From assembly GCF_900105355.1 (NCBI RefSeq), contig NZ_FNSC01000002.1:124001-188000 (forward strand): a DNA stretch of 64,000 nucleotides, in the 5' to 3' direction. This document shows positions 9,364 to 26,330 of the stretch, piece after piece (within the stretch, counting starts at the first letter, position 1; the number at the start of each line of letters is the position of its first letter). The translations under genes and the position numbers were made by a program. This DNA is from Pseudomonas anguilliseptica. Lineage in GTDB: Bacteria > Pseudomonadota > Gammaproteobacteria > Pseudomonadales > Pseudomonadaceae. Under the pieces are notes generated by a model. It was not told the DNA's origin, did not search any database, and saw only the letters and a program-made list of their open reading frames with translations.

Positions 9364-12300
9364 ATGTCAATAAAAGAGAGTTACGCCGTCGTTGCGGCCA
9401 ATAAATGGTCCATCACCAGCCTGCTTGTCGGGTTGGCTATCAGCATCGTTGTAGCTGTGGGGCTTGCTCAGTTCAATCATCGGGAGGCTGTTGAGGCTGT
9501 AAAGGCTGCTGCTGAGAAATCCGCTGATGCAGTGGTTAATCGCATAAAGCTTTATCAGTATGTTTTGCGAGGGGCTCGTGGCTCGATTCAGTCCATGGAC
9601 GAGAAAGCTATCACCCGTGAAGGTTTTGACCGCTACAGCAGGACGCGCAACGTTGAAGTGGAGTTCCCGGGCGCGCGTGGGTTTGGCTTTATTCGTCGCG
9701 TTGCCCCGCAGAGTGAAGCTGCGTTTTTGGCCCAGGCGCGTGCTGATGGCTGGCCAGATTTTGCCATCCGCCAGCTTGCGCCCCATGACGCCGAACGTTA
9801 TGTCATCCAATACATCAGCCCGGTCGAGCCCAACAGGGTAGCCATTGGTCTGGACATCGCCTCCGAGGCTAATCGACGGGAGGCTGCACGTTCCGCCATG
9901 CTGAGTGGTGAAGTGCGTCTGTCAGGGCCCATTACGCTGGTGCAGGCCACTGGCCAGCCGCAGCAATCCTTCCTGATCCTGATGCCGATCTACCGTGGTG
10001 GAGTGGATCCCGACACCATTGAAGCGCGTGAAGCGCAAGCGTTTGGCTGGAGCTATGCGCCATTGAGTATGGGCGAAGTGCTCAAAGGCATACGCCCGCC
10101 GGAGCAGGCAGTTAGCCTTGAGTTACGTGACATTACCGAACCCACACAAAGTGTCGTGTTTTATAACGATGAGGATGAACGTGCTCAGAAGGTTGTTCTC
10201 TCTCAGACGCTTGAGCGCGATGTGTATGGCCGGCGCTGGCAGGTGCAGTTTGGCGTGCACCCGCTGTTTATCAGCCAACTTCGCCAGTTTTCTCCGTTAC
10301 TGGCGCTGAGTCTTGGCTTCATCGTTTCTGTGTTATTAGCCGCCTTGGTAGGTGTGCTAAGTATCAGTCACACACGTCAGCAGCAAGTGATCGCGGAACA
10401 AGGCAAATTGGCCGCCATTGTTGAAAGTTCGGCCGATGGCATTATTGGTAAAAACCTAGATGGCACGGTGACCAGCTGGAATAAAGGTGCCGAGAGGCTG
10501 TTTGGGTTTAGTGCGAAGGAGGCGATAGGGCGACGCCTTATTGAATTGGTTATTCCTGAGGCGCTAAAAGATGAAGAGACAGAGATTCTTTCCACAGTTA
10601 AAGCGGGTGAGCACGTCCCCAGCTTTAATACCCTACGCCAAGATAAATACGGCAAGTTGATTCACGTTTCGGTTGCCGTTTCGCCTATTCGTAACTCTGC
10701 GGGCCAAGTCGTTGGGGCGTCGAAAACCGTCCGGGATAACACTAAGCAAGTGGCCGCTGATGCGAAAATTCATGAGCTCAATAACAGTCTTGAGGCTCAG
10801 GTCGTTCAGCGCACAGCGGAGCTGCGTGAGAGCAACTTGTTGTTGAGTAATGTGCTGCGCTCGGCCTCGGAAGTAGCAATTATTGCGACTGACCGGGAGG
10901 GCATCATTCGGTTATTCAATGCCGGTGCCGAGTGCATGCTGGGTTATAAGGCGCAAGAGCTGATCGATAAGAGCAGCTCTGCCAGCTTCCATCTCGGTCA
11001 AGAGGTGGCGGCTCGCTCGCTTGAATTGACTGCGCAATATGGCCAAGTGATTGAAGGGTTCCGAGTATTTGTGCACAAGGCCGAACTAGAGGGGGCGGAA
11101 ACACGTGAGTGGACCTACGTGCGTAAGGACGGCTCGCATTTACCGGTATCCCTGGCTGTTACGGCCATACGTGATGATGATGGCAATATCAACGGCTATC
11201 TGGGTATGGCAGTGGATTTGACTGCCGCCAAGGATTCTGAAGCTGCCGTTGCTGCAGCGCGTGATCAGTTGTTGATGGCAGCAGATGTGGCTGAGCTGGG
11301 TATCTGGTCCTGGACCCTGGCGGACAACTCCCTTAGTTGGAACGACCGCATGTTTGAGCTATACGGTCAGCCGCTCAGCCTGCGTGACAACGGCTTGAAC
11401 TATGAACACTGGTATTCACGTGTTCACCCCGACGATGTTTTGATGGCCGCCAAGCAGCTGCAAGGTGCGGTGGAAAAAGGCGAGGTTTATGACCCCGTCT
11501 TCCGCGTAGTCCGTCCGGATGGTTCGGTGTCTGTTGTCCAGGCCGGCGCCCAAGTTGAGCGTGATGAACAAGGCCTGGCATTACGGGTTACTGGCATCAA
11601 TCGCGACATTACCGTGCAGCGCGAGCTGCAAGCCCGTTTGCTGGATGCCAAGGAACAAGCGGATGCTGCCAGCGCAGCCAAGTCATCATTCCTGGCCAAT
11701 ATGAGTCACGAAATTCGCACGCCGATGAATGCGGTATTGGGCATGCTGCATTTGGTGCAGAACACCGAGTTGAATACGCGCCAGCTGGACTACATCAGCA
11801 AAGCTGAAACGGCCGCCAAGTCGTTGCTGGGGTTACTCAACGACATCCTCGACTATTCCAAGATTGAAGCGGGCAAGTTGCTGCTTGATGCACACTCTTT
11901 TGAGCCAGAGCCCTTGATGCGCGACTTGGCCACTGTTTTGTCTGGAAACCAGGGCGGCAAGGATGTTGAAGTCATGTTTGACCTCGACCCTGAGCTACCC
12001 AGCATATTATTTGGCGATAGCCTGCGTTTGCAGCAGGTGTTGATCAACCTGGCAGGGAATGCGCTCAAATTCACCCCGCAAGGACAGGTCGTTGTCAGTT
12101 TTGAGCAATTGCAGCGCCGGGGTGATGAGGTGCGTGTTCGCATCGAGGTCACTGACACCGGAATCGGCATAAATCCTGAGCAGCTGAAGCGTATCTTTGA
12201 TGGTTTCACCCAGGCTGAAGCCTCCACCTCGAGGCGTTTTGGTGGAACAGGACTGGGTTTGGTGATCTGCAAACGCTTGATCAACCTCATGGGCGGTGAG

Positions 12301-14821: not shown

Positions 14822-14916
14822 GGCCGATATAACGTAAGCGCTCCATAAACCTCATCTACAAATGATCCGCAGGCCAGCCAATGCTGAGCTCCAATTTCTT
14901 TCTGGAGCCAGCCGTC

Positions 14917-15276
14917 ATGATGCGCCCCGACGCCAAAGTCGAAAAAGTCTATCTATACCCCAAGCCGGTGGATTTCCGAAAATCCATCGATGGCCTGGCC
15001 GCCCTGGTCGAGCTGGATATCAAGGTGGCGGTGTTCGACCCGGTGCTGTTCGTCTTCCTCAACCGCGCGCGCAGCCGGGTGAAGATTTTGTATTGGGAGC
15101 GCAACGGCTTTTGCCTGTGGCTCAAGCGATTGGAGGCTGAACGCTTCAAGTCGCATCCGGAACCTGGCGAAGATGCGATCGTGCTGACGGCCCAGGAGTT
15201 GAACTGGTTGTTGGACGGTATCGACCTGTGGCGCAACCGGCCGCACCAGGTTTTGACCCCTAGGTTCGTCACCTGA
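14917..15276 (+). CDS. tnpB: IS66 accessory protein TnpB (copy A)
   Basis: About 119 residues from ATG 14917 (MMRPDAKVEKVYLYPKPVDF), which has GGAG upstream at a suitable distance; an in-frame ATG at 14881 would add 12 residues. It matches the IS66 Orf2/TnpB family: DFRKSIDGLAALVE, then VFLNRARSRVKILYWERNGF and LWLKRLEAERF. TnpB is needed for transposition in IS66 elements, but its biochemical role is not settled. It lies 18 bp before tnpC. The protein is identical in the three full copies. Confidence 0.9.
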   Translation: MMRPDAKVEKVYLYPKPVDFRKSIDGLAALVELDIKVAVFDPVLFVFLNRARSRVKILYWERNGFCLWLKRLEAERFKSHPEPGEDAIVLTAQELNWLLDGIDLWRNRPHQVLTPRFVT

Positions 15277-15294
15277 GCCGGTATAATCCACGGC

Positions 15295-16851
15295 ATGATT
15301 TCTGTGCCCGAAACCCTTCCTGATGACCCCGCCGCGCTCAAGCAATTGCTCGCTGAGGTGTTGTCGTCGGCGCAGGAATTGGCCAAGGACAAGGATGGGC
15401 AGATCGAGCGCCTGCGCGAACAAAACGCGCTGTTGATCCAGCGCCTGTTCGGCCGTAAATCCGAGCAGAGCAGCGACCCGGATTCACCGCAGCTAGAGAT
15501 GTTCAACGAAGCGGAAAGCCTGGCCGAAGCGGCGGCTGAAGCTCCGGCCGCTGAGGTCGAGGAAGAAGTCGTTGCGCCGACCAAGCGCCGCGGCAAGCGC
15601 AAGCCGTTACCGGCCGAACTACCGCGTGTCGAGGTCATCCACGAACTGCCCGAACACGAACTGACCTGCGAATGCGGTTGCCGCAAGCAGGCCATCGGCG
15701 AAGAAACCAGCGAGCAGCTGGAAATCATCCCGATGCAGGTTCAGGTGATCCGCCACATTCGCAAGACCTATGCCTGCAAGGCCTGCGAAAGCGCGCCGGT
15801 CACCGCTGACAAGCCGGCCCAACTGATCGAGAAAAGCCTGGCCAGCCCGAGCGTGCTGGCGATGCTGCTGACCAGCAAATACGCCGACGGCATCCCACTG
15901 TATCGCTTCGAAAAGATGCTCAGTCGCCATGGCATCGACATCCCCCGGCAGACCCTGGCGCGCTGGGTGATCCAGTGCGGCGAACTGCTACAACCGTTGC
16001 TCAACCTGATGCGCGACAGGCTGCTGGACAGTCCGGTGATCCACTGCGATGAAACCCGCGTGCAGGTGCTCAAGGAGCCTGGGCGCGATCCGAGCAGCCA
16101 CTCCTGGATGTGGGTGCAGACCGGTGGCCCGCCTGGCAAACCGGTGATCCTCTTCGACTACACAACCAGCCGCGCGCAGGAGGTGCCGCTGCGCCTGCTC
16201 GACGGTTATCGCGGCTACCTGATGACCGACGATTACGCCGGCTACAACGCCGTGGCCGCACAACAAGGTGTTGAACGCCTGGCCTGCTGGGCGCATGCGC
16301 GGCGCAAGTTCGTCGAAGCGCAAAAGGTGCAACCGAAGGGCAAAACCGGGCGTGCCGACATCGCGTTGGGGATGATCAACAAGCTCTACGGCATCGAGCG
16401 CGAACTTAAGGATGCCAGCGATGAACAGCGCTACCGGGGCCGCCAGCAGCACAGCCTACCGCTCCTCGATCAGCTCAAGACCTGGCTGGAGAAAACCCAG
16501 CCGCAGGTCACGGCGCAGAATGCCCTGGGCAAAGCAGTGAACTACCTGGCGAGCAACTGGAGCCGACTCGAACGCTACATCGAGGCTGGCCACCTGCCGA
16601 TCGATAACAACGCTGCCGAGCGCGCGATCCGGCCCTTCGTCATAGGTCGCAAGAACTGGCTGTTCAGCGACACGCCGAAAGGCGCGACCGCCAGCGCCCA
16701 ACTCTACAGCCTGGTGGAAACCGCCAAGACCAATGGCCAGGAGCCCTACGCCTGGTTGCGCCATGTCCTCGAACGCCTGCCGCTGGCCAACAGCGTTGAA
16801 GCCTACGAAGCGCTGCTGCCTTGGAACTGCCAACCAACGACGCCACTGTAA
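15295..16851 (+). CDS. tnpC: IS66 transposase TnpC (copy A)
   Basis: 518 residues. An N-terminal coiled coil with leucine-zipper character ([20 protein letters not shown]) is followed by a zinc-finger-like CECGCRKQ...CKAC pair, the DDE domain ([23 protein letters not shown]) and the conserved [20 protein letters not shown] block, then an IS66 C-terminal region ([15 protein letters not shown]). The frame is intact. At positions that vary among copies it has Ser in EKSLASPS, Thr in EKTQPQV and Pro in GHLPIDNN. Confidence 0.95.
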
Positions 16852-17002
16852 AACGCAAAACCTCTCCAGAGGGAGGTGGGGTCTATGGAGCGCTTACGAT
16901 ATAACCCGCACCTTCTTTTCAGGCGCAGCACCTGTTAATTCAGCAAATTAAGACCGGGTGCGGGTGCTCTAACTGTCCCGCATCGTGTCTCTACCTGTGG
17001 CG

Positions 17003-17140
17003 TTAGCGGCTCAGACGTTGCAACTCACGCCGCACCATCTGCGCATAAGCGGCAGGTGTGAGGGCATACAGTTCTGCTGCTACCCAACTCAACCAGGCTC
17101 CACCCCGTTCAGTTTTAGCGGCTAGCAGGCGCAGTGCTTC
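17003..17140 (-). pseudogene. C-terminal fragment of an unrecognised protein, cut by IS66 copy B
   Basis: On the minus strand, 45 codons ending in TAA at 17003-17005 stay open from the IS66 copy B boundary: EALRLLAAKTERGGAWLSWV, then AAELYALTPAAYAQMVRREL, then QRLSR. Its codon use and amphipathic helical character look like a real protein tail, convergent to the diguanylate cyclase gene. I do not recognise the family. The upstream part is not at the expected flank of any other IS66 copy in the window, so it was probably lost by recombination. The remaining inter-IS DNA (16906-17002) holds a CCCGCACC/GGGTGCGGG inverted pair with a long loop and no gene. Confidence 0.5.
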
Positions 17141-19204: not shown

Positions 19205-19844
19205 ACTTCATCGAGTTTGCGCACCACTTCATCGTCGGCGTGCCAGCGTTTGAGTTGCTGCTCACACTCGGCCACGCACTGTTCGTGCAGGTTGATTTCC
19301 GCCAGGACGATATGCAGTTGATGGCTCAAGGGGGGGCGACTTCTGGGCGCTCAACCAACTCGTGGGCCGCACGGATAAACGCGGCGGTGGCGACCGGGGC
19401 TTCGATACCCGCTTCGCGCAGGATGCCGCGCAGCAGGTTGATCCGCTGGGTACGGCTTTTCTTCCTGGTTTCGCGCAGCCCGTGCAGTTGCTGCACCTGT
19501 TGTTGCTCATGGGTTTTCACCGGCACCGGATAGATATCCTTGCAGCGCGCGGCCTCCAGCATCGCATCACAGTTATTACGGTCGGTTTTGTTGCGGCGTC
19601 GATACGGGCGTACATAGCGCGGGGGGATCAGCTTTATCGAATGGCCCAGTGCCTGTGCCACGCGCCCCCAGTAATGGGCCGTGCCGCAAGCCTCCATCAC
19701 CCACTCGACCGGCTCAGTTTGCTCCTGTATATATCGCCTGAACGCCTCTCGGTTCAGCCGCTTGCGCTGCACCACCTGGCCGGAACGGACACTCTCGGCA
19801 ACTTGGTAAACGGACTTGGCCAGATCAACCGCAATTCGTTTCAT
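19205..19844 (-). pseudogene. IS110/IS1111-type transposase, N-terminal part, frameshifted
   Basis: It starts at ATG 19844 (MKRIAVDLAKSVYQVAE). The RuvC-like DEDD domain has IAVDLAKSVYQV (first Asp), VMEACGTAHYWG (Glu) and RRNKTDRNNCDAMLEAAR (last Asp pair). The frame closes at 19326 because a C run (G run at 19330-19336 on the plus strand) is one base short: adding one C continues with LSHQLHIVLAEINLHEQC and on to KLDEV at the IS66 boundary. The C-terminal part is at 22736-23149. With the frameshift repaired and one GATGAAGT removed, the two parts give exactly 349 codons, supporting both the frameshift and the split. Confidence 0.88.
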
Positions 19845-19916
19845 CGCGCCTCTCCCTTTGTTCAGTCACCGCGGTTCTGGGTATAGAAGTGTGGCGCGGG
19901 GAGAGTCCATTACAGC
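19205..19916. mobile_element. IS110/IS1111-type element, 5' part (inverted, truncated by IS66)
   Basis: This is the left part of an IS1111-type element, read on the minus strand. Its subterminal repeat is at 19898-19909 (TGGACTCTCCCC on the minus strand), matching GGGGAGAGTCCA at 23397-23408 at the far end of the 3' part. The outer limit 19916 assumes the 7-bp tail beyond the repeat that is usual for IS1111 elements. The inner end is the IS66 junction with GATGAAGT (19205-19212 as ACTTCATC), repeated at 22736-22743. Joining both parts gives an element of about 1380 bp. Confidence 0.85.
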
Positions 19917-19979
19917 ATTCAAATCGTTCGCTTCGCTCTCTGGGACGGGCTAAAGCCCGCCCCTTAACCAAACGTTAGC
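19917..19979 (-). other. Integron attC site, larger part (split by the IS1111-type element)
   Basis: Immediately outside the IS1111 end, the plus strand carries a hairpin (GGGACGGGCTAAAGCCCGCCC) [arms GGGCGGGCT/AGCCCGCCC type] and then CTTAACCAAACGTTAGC, a textbook attC right end with GTTAGC as the R' core. The missing left core (GTCTAACAAGTGGT on the cassette strand) lies at 23412-23425 beyond the other end of the element. Joined, they form an attC of about 77 bp, the size known for pseudomonad chromosomal integrons. Because this DNA was inverted, its cassette strand is now the plus strand; before the inversion it was the minus strand, like the cassettes at 23.4-24.4 kb. Confidence 0.8.
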
Positions 19980-20073
19980 GAGCGTCTGCTCCGGGTCGAT
20001 TCTGTTGAAAAAGTAGCGACCTCCCCATGCCGTTGGCAAAATTGCTCTGTCAGCGAGCGTGGGGGCGAACAGC

Positions 20074-20308
20074 ATGATGGGACAGTTACCGGGAGGACAG
20101 CAGCGCCTGTTCTACTCGTTCAATCTGGAAGATCACGTCCCGGGCCAACACCTCCTGCGCAGCATCGACCAGTGCCTGGATCTCAGTGATCTGCGTGCCT
20201 ACCTGGCGGATTTCTATAGCCCCATCGGGCGTCCCTCGATTGACCCGGAGTTGATGGTGCGCATGCTGGTCGTCGGCTACTGCTATGGCATTCGTTCCGA
20301 GCGGCGAT
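20074..20308 (+). pseudogene. IS1182-type transposase, N-terminal fragment
   Basis: It starts at ATG 20074 (MMGQLPGGQQRLFYSFNLED). The segment HLLRSIDQCLDLSDL, then YSPIGRPSIDPELMVRMLVV and GYCYGIRSERR, is the typical N-terminal block of IS1182-family transposases (IS4/IS5-like superfamily). The similarity stops after RSERR at about 20308, and the frame closes at 20346 in unrelated sequence. The catalytic domain is missing. The element's left end probably lies near 20000 (CTGTTGAAAAAGTAGC). Confidence 0.75.
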
Positions 20309-20468
20309 TCAGTTCTTTTCCAACCAGACGAAACAGAACCGGTTGAAAGCGGCCACACTAATAATCGGAGCCAATCAGTGGCTATGCCATGTCGATGGCA
20401 TTGAGCAAAGCTGCAGGCATATGCATACTTATCGCGAACTTAGATTGAGCCCCTCACCTTGAACCTTC
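20309..20468. other. Unassigned 160-bp segment between the IS1182 fragment and IS66 copy C
   Basis: No open frame of note and no recognisable RNA. It begins abruptly where the IS1182 transposase stops being recognisable and ends at the IS66 left boundary with flank GAACCTTC. It is probably the end of another mobile element or host DNA captured by deletion; I cannot identify it. Confidence 0.4.
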
Positions 20469-20514
20469 GTAAGCGCTCCATAGACCCCACCTCCCTCTGG
20501 AGAGGTTTTGCGTT

Positions 20515-22071
20515 TTACAGTGGCGTCGTTGGTTGGCAGTTCCAAGGCAGCAGCGCTTCGTAGGCTTCAACGCTGTTGGCCAGCGGCAGGCGTTCGAGGA
20601 CATGGCGCAACCAGGCGTAGGGCTCCTGGCCATTGGTCTTGGCGGTTTCCACCAGGCTGTAGAGTTGGGCGCTGGCGGTCGCGCCTTTCGGCGTGTCGCT
20701 GAACAGCCAGTTCTTGCGACCTATGACGAAGGGCCGGATCGCGCGCTCGGCAGCGTTGTTATCGATCGGCAGGTGGCCAGCCTCGATGTAGCGTTCGAGT
20801 CGGCTCCAGTTGCTCGCCAGGTAGTTCACTGCTTTGCCCAGGGCATTCTGCGCCGTGACCTGCGGCTGGGTTTTCTCCAGCCAGGTCTTGAGCTGATCGA
20901 GGAGCGGTAGGCTGTGCTGCTGGCGGCCCCGGTAGCGCTGTTCATCGCTGGCATCCTTAAGTTCGCGCTCGATGCCGTAGAGCTTGTTGATCATCCCCAA
21001 CGCGATGTCGGCACGCCCGGTTTTGCCCTTCGGTTGCACCTTTTGCGCTTCGACGAACTTGCGCCGCGCATGCGCCCAGCAGGCCAGGCGCTCAACACCT
21101 TGTTGTGCGGCCACGGCGTTGTAGCCGGCGTAATCGTCGGTCATCAGGTAGCCGCGATAACCGTCGAGCAGGCGCAGCGGCACCTCCTGCGCGCGGCTGG
21201 TTGTGTAGTCGAAGAGGATCACCGGTTTGCCAGGCGGGCCACCGGTCTGCACCCACATCCAGGAGTGGCTGCTCGGATCGCGCCCAGGCTCCTTGAGCAC
21301 CTGCACGCGGGTTTCATCGCAGTGGATCACCGGACTGTCCAGCAGCCTGTCGCGCATCAGGTTGAGCAACGGTTGTAGCAGTTCGCCGCACTGGATCACC
21401 CAGCGCGCCAGGGTCTGCCGGGGGATGTCGATGCCATGGCGACTGAGCATCTTTTCGAAGCGATACAGTGGGATGCCGTCGGCGTATTTGCTGGTCAGCA
21501 GCATCGCCAGCACGCTCGGGCTGGCCAGCCTTTTCTCGATCAGTTGGGCCGGTTTGTCAGCGGTGACCGGCGCGCTTTCGCAGGCCTTGCAGGCATAGGT
21601 CTTGCGAATGTGGCGGATCACCTGAACCTGCATCGGGATGATTTCCAGCTGCTCGCTGGTTTCTTCGCCGATGGCCTGCTTGCGGCAACCGCATTCGCAG
21701 GTCAGTTCGTGTTCGGGCAGTTCGTGGATGACCTCGACACGCGGTAGTTCGGCCGGTAACGGCTTGCGCTTGCCGCGGCGCTTGGTCGGCGCAACGACTT
21801 CTTCCTCGACCTCAGCGGCCGGAGCTTCAGCCGCCGCTTCGGCCAGGCTTTCCGCTTCGTTGAACATCTCTAGCTGCGGTGAATCCGGGTCGCTGCTCTG
21901 CTCGGATTTACGGCCGAACAGGCGCTGGATCAACAGCGCGTTTTGTTCGCGCAGGCGCTCGATCTGCCCATCCTTGTCCTTGGCCAATTCCTGCGCCGAC
22001 GACAACACCTCAGCGAGCAATTGCTTGAGCGCGGCGGGGTCATCAGGAAGGGTTTCGGGCACAGAAATCAT
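20515..22071 (-). CDS. tnpC: IS66 transposase TnpC (copy C)
   Basis: 518 residues, intact, same domains as the other copies. It has Arg in EKRLASPS (as copy B) but Thr in EKTQPQV and Pro in GHLPIDNN (as copy A). Silent sites agree: it is B-like at the GTTGAGCGC site and A-like at CTCCTCGATCAG and GCCTGGTTGCGC. The switch lies between the positions equivalent to copy B 18583 and 18770. Confidence 0.95.
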
Positions 22072-22089
22072 GCCGTGGATTATACCGGC

Positions 22090-22449
22090 TCAGGTGACGA
22101 ACCTAGGGGTCAAAACCTGGTGCGGCCGGTTGCGCCACAGGTCGATACCGTCCAACAACCAGTTCAACTCCTGGGCCGTCAGCACGATCGCATCTTCGCC
22201 AGGTTCCGGATGCGACTTGAAGCGTTCAGCCTCCAATCGCTTGAGCCACAGGCAAAAGCCGTTGCGCTCCCAATACAAAATCTTCACCCGGCTGCGCGCG
22301 CGGTTGAGGAAGACGAACAGCACCGGGTCGAACACCGCCACCTTGATATCCAGCTCGACCAGGGCGGCCAGGCCATCGATGGATTTTCGGAAATCCACCG
22401 GCTTGGGGTATAGATAGACTTTTTCGACTTTGGCGTCGGGGCGCATCAT
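22090..22449 (-). CDS. tnpB: IS66 accessory protein TnpB (copy C)
   Basis: Same protein as in copies A and B, start ATG 22449 (MMRPDAKVEKVYLYPKPVDF), 18 bp upstream of the copy C tnpC. Confidence 0.9.
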   Translation of the reverse strand: MMRPDAKVEKVYLYPKPVDFRKSIDGLAALVELDIKVAVFDPVLFVFLNRARSRVKILYWERNGFCLWLKRLEAERFKSHPEPGEDAIVLTAQELNWLLDGIDLWRNRPHQVLTPRFVT

Positions 22450-22532
22450 GACGGCTGGCTCCAGAAAGAAATTGGAGCTCAGCATTGGCTGGCCTGCGGA
22501 TCATTTGTAGATGAGGTTTATGGAGCGCTTAC

Positions 22533-22735
22533 GAACACCGCCACCTTGATATCCAGCTCGACCAGGGCGGCCAGGCCATCGATGGATTTTCGGAAATCCA
22601 CCGGCTTGGGGTATAGATAGACTTTTTCGACTTTGGCGTCGGGGCGCATCATGACGGCTGGCTCCAGAAAGAAATTGGAACTCAGCATTGGCTGGCCTGC
22701 GGATCATTTGTAGATGAGGTTTATGGAGCGCTTAC
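22533..22735. mobile_element. IS66 remnant, copy D (203 bp of the left end, inverted)
   Basis: This segment repeats the last about 200 bp of copy C: the start of tnpB, the upstream leader and the terminal GTAAGCGCTCCATAAACC (minus strand). It begins directly at the copy C boundary inside the sequence GAACACCGCC of tnpB. One base differs from copy C (TTGGAA versus TTGGAG before CTCAGC). Its outer end abuts GATGAAGT, so this remnant belongs to the IS66 that inserted into the IS1111-type element. Confidence 0.9.
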
Positions 22736-23149
22736 GATGAAGTCAGCGGTATTGGCCTGCTGACCGCCAGCGCCCTGAAAAACGCAGTCGGCAAGCCCGA
22801 GCGCTTTGCCAGTGGTCGTCAACTCAGCGCCTGGCTGGGCCTGACACCACGCGAATTCAGTAGCGGCGACCGGCGCAAGTTGGGTCACATCAGCCGACAG
22901 GGCAACGTCTATGTGCGCACCTTGTTAATCCACGGCTCGCGAGCGGCCTTGCTGGCAGCACAGCGCTGTCAGGCTCGCTCACCGGAAAAACTGACCCAAT
23001 TGCAACGCTGGGCCGTCGAGACGGCAGCCCGTATCGGCCACAACAAAGCGGCTGTAGCCCTGGCCAACAAGTTGGTCAGGATTTGCTGGGCCGTATGGTG
23101 CCATGAGCGGCGTTTCAGTGGTAACTGGCAAAGCCTAAAGCCCGCCTGA
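22736..23149 (+). pseudogene. IS110/IS1111-type transposase, C-terminal part
   Basis: It opens in frame from the IS66 junction: DEVSGIGLLTASALKNAVGK, the Transposase_20 (helix-hairpin-helix) region with LSAWLGLTPREFSSGDRRK, then LGHISRQGNVYVRTLLIHGS, which holds the conserved catalytic Ser region of IS110 proteins. It ends WQSLKPA at 23149. It completes the N-terminal part at 19205-19844. It has no start codon of its own that would give a functional enzyme. Confidence 0.88.
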
Positions 23150-23396
23150 CGGCGGGGTAATCAGAAGGGAGAGATGGTTTTCTTGTGGTTGTGGTGAGCA
23201 GCAGCACTGTCGGAACAGGCGAGTCCTGCAGCGGAATAAGGCCGATAATAATCATGATCCGCGTGATCGATTGAACGCTTGGCCCCCGCTGCGCGAACTA
23301 CAGAGTGGCCAGGGCGGTGAGCCCAAAACAGGCCGGATATACGAATGCAACCGCGCTGACGACAGGTGCAAAAGCAAAGCTTTGCTCACTACTTGT
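23150..23396 (+). ncRNA. Candidate guide (bridge/seek) RNA region of the IS1111-type element
   Basis: In IS1111-group elements the non-coding region between the transposase stop and the right repeat encodes the RNA that pairs with donor ends and target. Here that region is about 247 bp, free of open frames, and includes paired segments such as AGCAAAGCTTTGCT near 23373-23386. No promoter or exact RNA ends can be assigned by eye, and I could not establish a guide match to the attC target. The call rests on position and family knowledge. Confidence 0.4.
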
Positions 23397-23411
23397 GGGG
23401 AGAGTCCATAT

Positions 23412-23425
23412 ACCACTTGTTAGAC
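23412..23425 (-). other. Integron attC site, left core (split by the IS1111-type element)
   Basis: On the minus strand this reads GTCTAACAAGTGGT, the R'' core (RYYYAAC) and adjoining bases of an attC, right after the GNAT cassette gene. Its partner half is 19917-19979. It marks the 3' end of the GNAT cassette. Confidence 0.78.
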
Positions 23426-23433
23426 GGTGCCAA

Positions 23434-23901
23434 TTATAACTTCACTTTATTATTAGGAAAGTATTCAAGTATCTCATCGCCCGCATCATCAAATAGACCA
23501 GTGGAGCGCCAGCCTAGGTGCCTATAAAAACCATATGAACGAGCTTTTGGATCGGATGAGCATCCGAGGAAAAGTCTTTCGAATCCTAAAGGCTGGAAAG
23601 ACTCAATCATTTGATTTAGTAGTACTTTGCCAACACCTTTATTTTCATATTCTGGTAATAGTGCCAAAACAACAATTTCTCCAGCGTGGCTATCACCGAA
23701 GCAATAGCCAATAATCTTCCCTTCACAAACACTAACGTAACCCGGTAAGGAGCCATCGCTAATTCCTGCTTTCCAGCTATCTAAAGTAATACCGAGCTCT
23801 TCCAATTGTTCGACAGAGAAAGCATTTTCTCTCGTCTTTTCTCTCAAGGCGATGCATTCGGCCGTATCGTCAGGCGTTGCTATCCTGTATGCAACTTTCA
23901 T
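23434..23901 (-). CDS. GNAT-family N-acetyltransferase carried as an integron cassette
   Basis: 155 residues from ATG 23901 (MKVAYRIATPDDTAECIALR), which has GGAG nine bases upstream; the frame could extend to 23913. The acetyl-CoA binding motif A is clear: VVLALLPEYENKGVGKVLLN with the R/QxxGxG/A-type loop (ENKGVGK), followed by FYRHLGW. The substrate cannot be predicted. The gene is visibly AT-richer than its surroundings. It sits between attC sites (23933-23984 upstream, 23412-23425 downstream), which is the single-gene, promoterless organisation of an integron cassette. It is not one of the aminoglycoside acetyltransferases I recognise. Confidence 0.85.
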   Translation of the reverse strand: MKVAYRIATPDDTAECIALREKTRENAFSVEQLEELGITLDSWKAGISDGSLPGYVSVCEGKIIGYCFGDSHAGEIVVLALLPEYENKGVGKVLLNQMIESFQPLGFERLFLGCSSDPKARSYGFYRHLGWRSTGLFDDAGDEILEYFPNNKVKL

Positions 23902-23932
23902 CAGGGTCTCCACATTTATCTCTTGGTTGGAG

Positions 23933-23984
23933 ATCTAACGTCTGAGCTCAGCCGCACCGGTGTCGGCTGCAGCGATTTGTTAGC
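23933..23984 (-). other. Integron attC site (complete)
   Basis: On the minus strand the site runs from GCTAACAAATCGCTGCAGCC to GAGCTCAGACGTTAGAT. R'' core GCTAAC and R' core GTTAGAT lie at the ends, and GCAGCCGAC pairs imperfectly with the CGGCTGAGC arm around ACCGGT. These are the cores and folded shape of a short attC (about 52 bp). It follows the stop of the small exported protein by 5 bp and precedes the GNAT cassette. Confidence 0.85.
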
Positions 23985-23989
23985 AATCG

Positions 23990-24280
23990 TTATTTGATAA
24001 GTGCCTTAGCGCATTCAACAAACGGCTTAACCGCGGCTTGCATTGCGGGGTCTCCTGGCCTCGTACCGCCGACGGTTAAGTCGAAGCCTCCGTTGAACAT
24101 CTGATTAGGTTTGGTTGTATCAATTGTGCCGGTGATTTTCAGGTCAAACGTGTGTCCGCTTGGAAGTAATGACGCACATGACTGAATGGTCCTGCTAGGC
24201 TGGTCGGCACTCACCGACAATGCGACAGTTCCAGCGAGTGCGATTATTGCTGTAATAGCGAGGGCAATTCTTGTGATCAT
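23990..24280 (-). CDS. Small exported protein of unknown function carried as an integron cassette
   Basis: 96 residues from ATG 24280 (MITRIALAITAIIALAGTVA), preceded by AAGGAG. A clear Sec signal peptide (hydrophobic core at about 6-20, probable cut after VSA) leads a short soluble domain with two cysteines (SCASLLPSG and VECAKALIK) that could form a disulfide. No family recognised. It lies in a cassette bounded by attC remnants at 24398-24413 and the complete attC at 23933-23984. The leader between the attC and the start is about 117 bp, long for a cassette, and holds no other convincing gene. Confidence 0.75.
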   Translation of the reverse strand: MITRIALAITAIIALAGTVALSVSADQPSRTIQSCASLLPSGHTFDLKITGTIDTTKPNQMFNGGFDLTVGGTRPGDPAMQAAVKPFVECAKALIK

Positions 24281-24397
24281 CGTTTACTCCTTATGATTTT
24301 TATGGTTTTTGGATCTTCAAAGTGAAGCGCACCGAGAACGGCGGGCGGTTCACGGCTAGGTTCGACAAAATGGTACAGCGTTAGTTCCTCGACGATT

Positions 24398-24413
24398 GCT
24401 AACGTTTGGTTAA
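24398..24413 (-). other. Integron attC right end, cut by IS5 copy 2
   Basis: On the minus strand this reads TTAACCAAACGTTAGC, identical to the right end of the attC at 19917-19979 (L' and R' cores). IS5 copy 2 begins at 24414, exactly after TTAA, which fits its YTAR target. The rest of this attC is absent from the other IS5 flank. Confidence 0.8.
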
Positions 24414-25604
24414 GGATGGTCTGAAGTAGCCATGTATTTCTGGCTGACTTCAGCCCCGCCGATTTTGAAAGCGGCAAATCGATCAAAAACGATCAGATTA
24501 CCCATTCATTTCTGTGTTTTTAGCCGCCGCGAGTAGCTCGCGGCAGCCATTTCCCGCATTACAGGCGCACCTCTCCTGCATTGGTCAGTAAATGTCGGCG
24601 TGCCATCCACAGGTTCGACAGCGCGAACAGCGTCACCAGTTGCGCCGTGTTCTTGGCCAAGCCACGGAAGCGTGTCTTTACATAACTGAACTGACGCTTG
24701 ATCACCCGGAACGGGTGCTCAACCTTGGCGCGCACCTGGGCCTTGGCCTTCTCGATCTTGCGTTTGGCTTTGTACAGCGGGCTGCTCTTACCCAGCTTCT
24801 TATAGGTGCTGCGGCGGGCAGCAACCTGCCAGATCACCTCGCGCCCATCATGTTCGGGGCGCTTTTCGACGCCGGTATAACCCGCATCGGCGCACACCAC
24901 GTTTTCCTCGCCGTGCAGCAACTTGTCGACCTGAGTGACATCCGCCACGTTGGCCGCCGTGCCTACCACGCTGTGTACCAGCCCCGACTCGTCATCCACG
25001 CCAATGTGCGCCTTCATGCCGAAGTAGTATTGGTTGCCCTTCTTGGCCTGGTGCATCTCTGGGTCGCGTTTGCCGTCCTTGTTCTTGGTCGAACTCGGCG
25101 CATTGATCAGCGTGGCATCGACGATGGTGCCTTGGCGCAACGACAGGCCACGGTCGCCAAGATAGCCATTGATGACGGCCAGGATGCCGGCAGCCAACTC
25201 ATGTTTCTCCAGCAGACGACGGAAGTTGAGGATGGTGGTTTCGTCGGGGATACGTTCCAGACTCAGCCCGGCGAACTGCCGCAGGATAGTGGTCTCGTAC
25301 AGCGCTTCTTCCATCGCCGGGTCGCTGTAGCCGAACCAGTTCTGCATCAGGTGCACACGTAGCATCGCCATCAGCGGATAGGCCGGCCGACCGCCTTCAC
25401 CCTTGGGGTAATACGGTTCGATCAGTGCGATCAAACCCTTCCACGGCACCACCCGATCCATCTCGATCAGGAACAACTCTTTGCGGGTCTGCTTGCGTTT
25501 GCCGGCGTACTCGGCATCGGCGAAGGTCATTTGCTTCATCGGAAAACTCGGCGGGTGGCGTCCGGGCATTTTGCCAAAATCAGGAAGTCTTATTCAGAGT
25601 TTCC
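24414..25604. mobile_element. IS5-family insertion sequence, copy 2 (1191 bp)
   Basis: Same ends as copy 1 (GGATGGTCTGAAG at the left; GGAAACTCTGAATAAG inverted at the right). The flanking tetranucleotides are TTAA (24410-24413) and CTAG (25605-25608): both fit the YTAR target rule but they are different, so the two flanks come from two separate insertions that recombined. Confidence 0.92.
24559..25569 (-). CDS. IS5-family transposase (copy 2)
   Basis: 336 residues, intact DDE transposase (TIVDATLINAPSS, VCADAGYTG), the same as copy 1 except for two extra residues in IEKAKAQVRAK from a 6-bp tandem unit. Alternative start MKQMTFADAEYAG at 25539. Confidence 0.93.
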   Translation of the reverse strand: MPGRHPPSFPMKQMTFADAEYAGKRKQTRKELFLIEMDRVVPWKGLIALIEPYYPKGEGGRPAYPLMAMLRVHLMQNWFGYSDPAMEEALYETTILRQFAGLSLERIPDETTILNFRRLLEKHELAAGILAVINGYLGDRGLSLRQGTIVDATLINAPSSTKNKDGKRDPEMHQAKKGNQYYFGMKAHIGVDDESGLVHSVVGTAANVADVTQVDKLLHGEENVVCADAGYTGVEKRPEHDGREVIWQVAARRSTYKKLGKSSPLYKAKRKIEKAKAQVRAKVEHPFRVIKRQFSYVKTRFRGLAKNTAQLVTLFALSNLWMARRHLLTNAGEVRL

Positions 25605-25667: not shown

Positions 25668-26330
25668 TTACTGCTTCTTGCCCCAGAGTTTTTCCAGGCG
25701 TTGATCACGACCGCAGCCGTTGCGGTAGTAGTTGTAGCGCAGCGGATTACGTTGGTAGTAGTCCTGGTGATAGTCCTCCGCCGGGTAGAAGGTGCTGGCG
25801 GCGAGGATTTCCGTGACCACCGGGGCCGGTAGGCGCCCGGACTTCTCCAGGGCGGCCTTGGAGGCTTCGGCCAGTTGCTGTTCTTCGGCGCTGCTGTAGA
25901 AGATCGCGCTGCGGTACTGCGGGCCACGGTCGCAGAACTGAGCATTGGCAGTGATTGGGTCAATGGTGGGCCAGAAGGCTTCCAGCAGCTTGGCGTAGCT
26001 GGTCTTGCTCGGGTCGAAGCGCACCTGCACCGCTTCGATATGCCCACTGGTGCCGGCAGAGACTTGCTCGTAGGTGGGGTTGTCGACATGTCCGCCGATA
26101 TAGCCGGAGGTGGTTTCAATCACTCCGGGCACTTTGTCGAAATCTGATTCGGTGCACCAGAAGCAGCCACCGGCAAAGATCGCCACGCCAGGGTTTTCCA
26201 CCGTTGACGCACCGACTTGTGGCTGCGGCGCCTGTGCCGCGGTGGGTTCACAGGCAGCCAGCAGGCCGCCCAGAGCGAGGATGCTGCTGGCCAGCAAACG
26301 GCTGCGCCAGGTAGAGGGGATGGCAGTCAT
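25668..26330 (-). CDS. msrA: Peptide methionine sulfoxide reductase MsrA, lipoprotein form
   Basis: It reduces the S-epimer of methionine sulfoxide in oxidised proteins. The catalytic motif GCFWCTESDFD is at about residue 55; further family blocks are TSGYIGGHVDNPTYEQVSAG, VRFDPSKTSYAKLLEAFW and RGPQYRSAIFYSS. The N-terminus is a signal peptide with lipobox LLAAC (Cys27), so the enzyme is predicted to be anchored on the periplasmic side rather than cytosolic. It follows msrB by 2 bp on the same strand; the pair forms a periplasmic methionine-repair operon. Its 3' side is 60 bp from IS5 copy 2. Confidence 0.95.
   Translation of the reverse strand: MTAIPSTWRSRLLASSILALGGLLAACEPTAAQAPQPQVGASTVENPGVAIFAGGCFWCTESDFDKVPGVIETTSGYIGGHVDNPTYEQVSAGTSGHIEAVQVRFDPSKTSYAKLLEAFWPTIDPITANAQFCDRGPQYRSAIFYSSAEEQQLAEASKAALEKSGRLPAPVVTEILAASTFYPAEDYHQDYYQRNPLRYNYYRNGCGRDQRLEKLWGKKQ

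Follow-up and report, generated by a model that had tools for sequence, protein, structure and literature searches.

A probable fragment of a chromosomal integron, broken up by insertion sequences, in Pseudomonas anguilliseptica

In a stretch of 64,000 nucleotides of the Pseudomonas anguilliseptica genome (the window; C2:124001-188000 of a 5.23-Mb genome in three contigs), the region at 19.2-25.6 kb very probably is a fragment of a Pseudomonas chromosomal integron that resembles a cluster of attC sites lacking integron integrases (CALIN) and has been dismantled by insertion sequences (ISs) of the IS1111-type, IS66 and IS5 kinds. With the same high confidence, it holds two gene cassettes, one for a GNAT acetyltransferase and one for a 96-aa protein of exported type, together with the attC end of a third, which all lie on the - strand if one inversion is reversed. 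The order across the region is an IS1111-type part with an attC 3' part, an IS1182-type fragment and IS66, followed by the remainder of the IS1111-type element, an attC 5' end, the GNAT gene, a short attC, the 96-aa gene, a 16-nt attC end and IS5 (Table 1). A gene for the integron integrase IntI survives elsewhere in the genome, while the cassettes of the window are cut off from it by ISs. The region is a clear case of an already known kind of structure, since genomic rearrangement is a published origin of CALINs (excerpt of PMC8618304) and CALINs remote from the integrase have been reported in Xanthomonas (excerpt of PMC12444791).

attC sites and gene cassettes

The original prediction, made from the letters of the stretch alone, had recognised three sites with attC cores, one complete, one split by the IS1111-type element and one cut by IS5. 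All three were seen in the sequence where it had placed them, and the latter two share the 17-mer CTTAACCAAACGTTAGC, for which the genome gave 3 exact matches and 9 at up to 2 mismatches (reversed control, 0). Because no match was obtained when the window was scanned with Rfam at gathering thresholds, covariance models were built from core-bounded, hairpin-forming sites taken around intI relatives of other species (best 80 of 567). Model R1 comprised 45 sites of 75-78 nt (all candidates used; alignment A1) from loci of other genomes, whose records named Pseudomonas, Stutzerimonas and, once, merely a gammaproteobacterium. Model R2 comprised 26 sites from 9 loci of other organisms, none in a record named Pseudomonas; one was from Stutzerimonas (L153) and the rest from Contendobacter, Rhodanobacter, Frateuria, Lysobacteraceae, Planctomycetota and one unplaced gammaproteobacterium. 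For R2, 28 of 50 candidates were aligned at the outset, 3 badly aligned rows were removed and 2 added (27), and 1 more was then removed. The genome scans scored 150 of 1569 (R1) and 150 of 3432 (R2) first-look candidates, so that all attC counts for the genome are lower bounds.

In the covariance-model check suggested with the prediction, the split site (R1, 65.9 bits) and the complete site (R2, 52.6 bits) scored strongly, while the third, of 16 nt, was too short to score. The two scoring sites are attCs. The complete one, predicted with cores at 23933-23984, was present there and reads TGCTAAC...GTTAGAT on the - strand, with paired cores and a stem visible in the R2 alignment. Its E value, 4e-12 over 8.5 kb with filters off, was 2.4e-9 genome-wide, and it was the top R2 match in the genome, with 150 of 3432 candidates scored. 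The score of the 3' part of the split site includes the adjoining IS tip (genome-wide E 1.3e-15); compared with the 34 attCs of 76 nt among the 45 in A1, this part was identical at 60 of 62 positions to the best and at 58 of 62 to the median. The first 15 nt of the stub, TTAACCAAACGTTAGC, are present in 36 of the 45 attCs of other genomes.

Both genes had been described as AT-richer than their surroundings, which holds relative to the window (GC content 42% for the GNAT gene and 50% for the 96-aa gene, against 59%). They had also been described as each followed by an attC in the same orientation. This layout of a cassette was confirmed: the 96-aa gene is followed by the attC at 23985-23933, and the GNAT gene by an attC 5' end at 23425, the 3' part of that site being displaced and facing the opposite way. 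Excision of a cassette by IntI takes recombination between two attCs. The 96-aa cassette now has one intact attC and one stub, and the GNAT cassette one intact attC and one split, displaced site; since neither is flanked by two intact attCs, neither should at present be excisable as a cassette.

A search for the two cassettes in other integrons had been proposed, and succeeded for one of them. GNAT matches besides its own with more than 50% identity numbered 3 among the matches listed for the genus genomes (86, 58 and 57%), and the locus of the 86% relative (L155) spans 3.46 kb and contains 7 R1 sites, all in the same orientation, with the gene flanked by a site on each side. One attC of this array has likewise been entered by an IS1111-type end. 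When 15 of 33 GNAT loci were run with both attC models (E up to 0.1), attC matches were obtained only for the window itself (L154) and for L155. The order sample gave GNAT matches at E <=1e-35 in 3 of 389 other genomes (61-62% identity), and among the best 120 of 1513 matches of a protein search the nearest named ones were from Halomonas and Vreelandella (87-91%). Among the 298 genus genomes, the 96-aa protein was matched in its own genome alone, and a protein search limited to relatives sharing short words gave one cluster, the window's own (10 candidates). In the protein search both cassette proteins were also listed with a contig of 5,238,386 bases, which tentatively argues for a chromosomal rather than a plasmid location.

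Nested insertion sequences and the split attC

The two pieces of the split attC were found as predicted, but they now face opposite ways. IS66 elements generate 8-bp target duplications, and IS66 copy A (14834-16897) has GATATAAC on both flanks. The copy inside the IS1111-type element is followed directly by GATGAAGT at 22736-22743, while the reverse complement of GATGAAGT lies at 19205-19212, adjoining a different IS66 copy. The two inverted IS66 arms show 100% complementarity along 2067 nt and enclose 1264 nt. Because the halves of the duplication lie on opposite strands, the segment 19205-20468 (1.26 kb) was probably flipped by recombination between inverted IS66 copies, which is the simplest reading of the arrangement, and the two attC parts would formerly have been one site. 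The opposite orientation of these parts, and the fact that the IS1111-type element is of a kind that enters attCs, had been overlooked in the original prediction. A 203-bp exact tandem duplication of the IS66 end was also observed (window 22329-22734). Directly after an attC end in each case, GAGCGTCTGCTCCGGGTCGA occurs at window 19980-20000 and at L022:9840-9862 on opposite strands, and may be a shared cassette start or a dispersed repeat.

The IS1111-type element encodes a DEDD transposase of the IS110/IS1111 kind, as seen in the pieces in the window and in an intact 347-aa copy elsewhere in the genome (NF033542, 292.6 bits, cut-off 140), and carries the subterminal inverted repeat GGGGAGAGTCCAT at both ends. 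Five complete copies were 99.7-99.9% identical over 1370 nt, so that the spread of the element looks recent. Among 11 right ends, 4 (L056, L061, L063 and the window) were in attCs with both parts recognised, in each case at the attC 5' end; 2 (L057 and L058) had an attC core at the right end alone and 5 were elsewhere. The motif TTGTTA was exact at the junction in 6 of the 11, one of them outside an attC, and the others kept 2-5 of its 6 letters in the positions tried. IS1111 members that target attCs use a guide RNA, according to an excerpt of PMC11187229. Downstream of the transposase gene, the target-matching stretches TAACAA and then TTGAAC occur in the expected order, with the top-strand complement first, 25 nt apart; two other 6-nt matches lie in the same stretch, so that this may be chance. 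The element resembles the attC-targeting members ISKpn4, ISPst6 and ISPa25, as that excerpt describes them (PMC11187229), in its IS110/IS1111-type transposase, its subterminal inverted repeats and its insertion at one attC end. The likeness is one of features, and unlike those elements 5 of 11 right ends lie outside attCs here, mostly at sites keeping part of the end motif. Two IS1111-type copies, L060 (C1:3283530-3284545) and L061 (C1:3600519-3601534), have an identical internal deletion of 354 bp although they lie at different sites, of which one is in an attC; a deletion derivative may have moved or been copied.

The nesting of the elements suggests a likely order of events. An array of cassettes would have been built by IntI, and an IS1111-type element, of the kind with guide-RNA targeting of attC ends, would then have inserted into the attC of the GNAT cassette, at its 5' end. 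A copy of IS66 would have inserted into this element and created the 8-bp duplication, and recombination with an inverted IS66 copy would have flipped 19205-20468. Finally, IS5 would have entered the next attC, and a later rearrangement at IS5 may have removed the remaining half of that attC and placed the fragment next to msrA.

Table 1. Features of the integron fragment and its insertion sequences (window positions)
Feature	Position	Strand	Evidence
Apparently inverted segment between two opposed IS66 copies	19205..20468	.	Inverted arms; 8-bp duplication on opposite strands
IS1111/IS110-type transposase gene, 5' part	19326..19844	-	PF01548 49.6 bits; NF033542 136.1 bits, just below cut-off 140
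Split attC, 3' part, facing opposite to its 5' part	19918..19979	+	R1 match 19907-19980, 65.9 bits
IS1182-type transposase gene, 5' fragment, beyond attC end	20059..20346	+	NF033551 72.9 bits, cut-off 270
IS66 element between two IS1111-type parts, then 203-bp copy of its end (to 22735)	20469..22532	-	NF033517 IS66 476.7 bits; NF033819 TnpB 107.3 bits
IS1111-type 3' part and right end (GGGGAGAGTCCAT then ATAC)	22736..23413	+	NF033542 C-terminal stretch 58.1 bits, cut-off 140
Split attC, 5' end (R'' core), GTCTAACAAGTG	23414..23425	-	Sequence; at most 11/12 positions shared with attCs elsewhere (other genomes)
Cassette gene 1, GNAT acetyltransferase, 155 aa from ATG (159 aa from GTG at 23913)	23434..23901	-	PF00583 46.7 bits
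Complete short attC, stem with bulged base	23933..23985	-	R2 52.6 bits, E 4e-12
Cassette gene 2, 96-aa protein, N-terminal signal-like segment (by eye)	23990..24280	-	No Pfam or NCBIfam match
attC 3' end (R' core) of next upstream cassette, cut by IS5	24398..24413	-	TTAACCAAACGTTAGC; 17-mer common to split site
IS5-family element, no matching target duplication (TTAA / CTAG)	24414..25604	-	NF033581 356.4 bits

Integrase gene, scattered attCs and origin of the fragment

No integrase had been noticed in the window, and the array had been taken either for an orphan remnant or for a part of something continuing elsewhere. The intI search gave 8 matches in the genome and 0 in the window, where no intI accompanies the cassettes as in a complete integron. 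One match, on contig C1 (3603114-3604055), is a full-length intI (490 bits, cut-off 265); the other 7 were below the cut-off, as were those in 14 control genomes. Among the best 80 of 567 relatives, the intIs of other Pseudomonas reached 96% identity to this one. Beside it lie an IS30 (330.6 bits), an internally deleted IS1111-type copy in an attC, an IS5, a further attC and a gene for a 137-aa protein. With this gene and other attC-bearing fragments in the same genome, the second of the two possibilities, continuation elsewhere, was borne out.

In the genome, R1 matched at least 11 full-length sites, including the one at 19907-19980 of the window, and 2 weak partial ones (E 0.27), and R2 matched at least 4 sites, scoring 47.1, 46.1 and, weakly, 25.7 bits (C1:1035671) besides that of the window. 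Model-supported attCs were located at at least 7 loci, namely C1:1217252-1219220, C1:1342867, C1:3599105-3600522, C1:4558255-4559444, C2:16519-19183, C2:38199 and the window; at an eighth, C1:2229749, just an attC-like core is left between IS1111 and IS5 ends. At least 59 of 199 genomes of a genus sample (own included; up to 24 candidates scored per genome) had an R1 match. Because, among the matches listed, those of some genomes are widely separated within one contig or spread over many, scattering of attCs is not peculiar to the P. anguilliseptica genome. At C2:16519-19183 (L022:8519-11183), two opposed attCs, one of which scored 24.1 bits, meet at a 64-bp spacer (9796-9859), and an IS66 end bounds one side.

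The window resembles a CALIN in having attC-bearing cassettes and no intI nearby; it differs in that 1 of 3 sites is intact and the two scoring sites lie on opposite strands. The CALIN threshold, as quoted in an excerpt of PMC12444791, is at least 2 attC sites without a nearby intI, and according to the same excerpt about half of Xanthomonas genomes have CALINs at a distance from the intI locus. Two model-supported sites are present in the window, one of them split and displaced. A tool that clusters attCs of the same strand may not call the window, its scoring sites being on opposite strands. With chromosomal integrons of Pseudomonas the window shares an attC of the 75-78-nt kind seen beside intI in other Pseudomonas; in contrast to them, attC pieces are found here at at least 7 loci and intI at one, which is not unique in the genus sample.

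Several observations weigh against this interpretation. The models are our own and distinct from the published attC model, and the core-plus-hairpin filter behind them was loose, passing 133 sites on the cassette strand and 72 on the opposite strand. With R1, the short attC scored just 13.9 bits, compared with 13.6 bits for a stretch spanning the IS right end, so that it is regarded as another type of attC; its single-strand DNA fold was mildly better than that of shuffled sequences (z -1.67; 12 of 200 shuffles equally good). The 16-nt stub alone reached 6.7 bits (E 1.5). The outer flanks of the IS66 copies, AGTGCTTC (17133-17140) and GAACCTTC (20461-20468), do not match in either sense, and therefore at least one event beyond a single flip must have occurred. 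The other half of the attC cut by IS5 did not turn up in the loci examined, and a rearrangement partner at msrA was sought and not identified. Occurrence of the genes elsewhere in Pseudomonas without attCs had been named beforehand as counter-evidence. Within the genus sample, the GNAT relative of highest identity (86%) lies between attCs, but no attC match was obtained in the loci of relatives at 57-62% (L156, L157 and L236-L238) and of more distant ones that were run, so that this family also occurs outside cassettes. The predicted cassette array is supported by the attC models, with the correction that the split pieces face opposite ways.

That the cores are chance look-alikes beside ordinary genes is extremely improbable. 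GNAT genes are widespread (matches at E <=0.001 in 156 of the 298 genomes of the genus, own included), but the genome-wide E values of both the short and the long site, and the close GNAT relative between attCs in another array, speak against coincidence. It is unlikely that the array arrived by horizontal transfer already free of an integrase and unrelated to the genome's own intI. The different attC types (a 76-nt Pseudomonas type and a 53-nt type fitting the other model) and the GNAT homologues with Halomonas and Vreelandella names would agree with transfer; however, the same mixture of types is found at C2:16519-19183 and C1:4558255-4559444, and the 76-nt type also occurs beside intI relatives in other Pseudomonas. 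Single insertion of the cassettes at secondary (attG-like) sites by IntI acting in trans, instead of separation from a main array, is slightly less likely still. The full-length intI makes activity in trans possible, and off-target insertion is likewise among the three origins of CALINs given in an excerpt of PMC8618304, which include genomic rearrangement. The fragment, however, is bounded by ISs, and its cassettes are consecutive in one orientation with attC pieces at both ends, which indicates that it was once longer.

Separation from a chromosomal integron by IS-mediated rearrangement is thus preferred, and the target duplications, the displaced attC halves and the intI surviving in the same genome fit such a route, which makes the window a readable example of how integrase-less cassette clusters form. 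As a tentative generalisation, with the odds against it, an attC-targeting and probably RNA-guided IS might turn attCs into patches of shared homology, and recombination between IS1111-type, IS66 and IS5 copies might scatter an integron into pieces of one or a few cassettes, some still excisable in trans by the surviving IntI and some locked, as in the window. By immobilising cassettes, attC-directed and other ISs would offer a route from mobile genes to fixed chromosomal genes.

IS5 copies and the msrA boundary

The IS5 end TTCAGAGTTTCC was matched at 67 places in the genome, indicating a heavy IS load, and 33 distinct right-end flanks were examined among these 67 ends. Both ends could be seen for 24 IS5 copies, and 19 of these had identical 4-bp flanks; the attC-adjoining copies in the window and at the intI locus were among the 5 without matching flanks. 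Alignments of the window to genomes G014 and G042 begin at 25673 and 25675, 69-71 bp past IS5. C1:123209-127003 was considered as the rearrangement partner at msrA, as it has most of the msrA-adjoining segment of G014 near an IS5 copy, but was not adopted because that copy (L025) has matching duplications. The left flank of IS5 at L040 (C1:1702938) and the right flank at L197 (C1:2230024) resemble the opposite sides of a single insertion in an IS1111-type element, which recombination might have separated; the two flanks of the copy at L197 nevertheless agree with each other in 4 bp.

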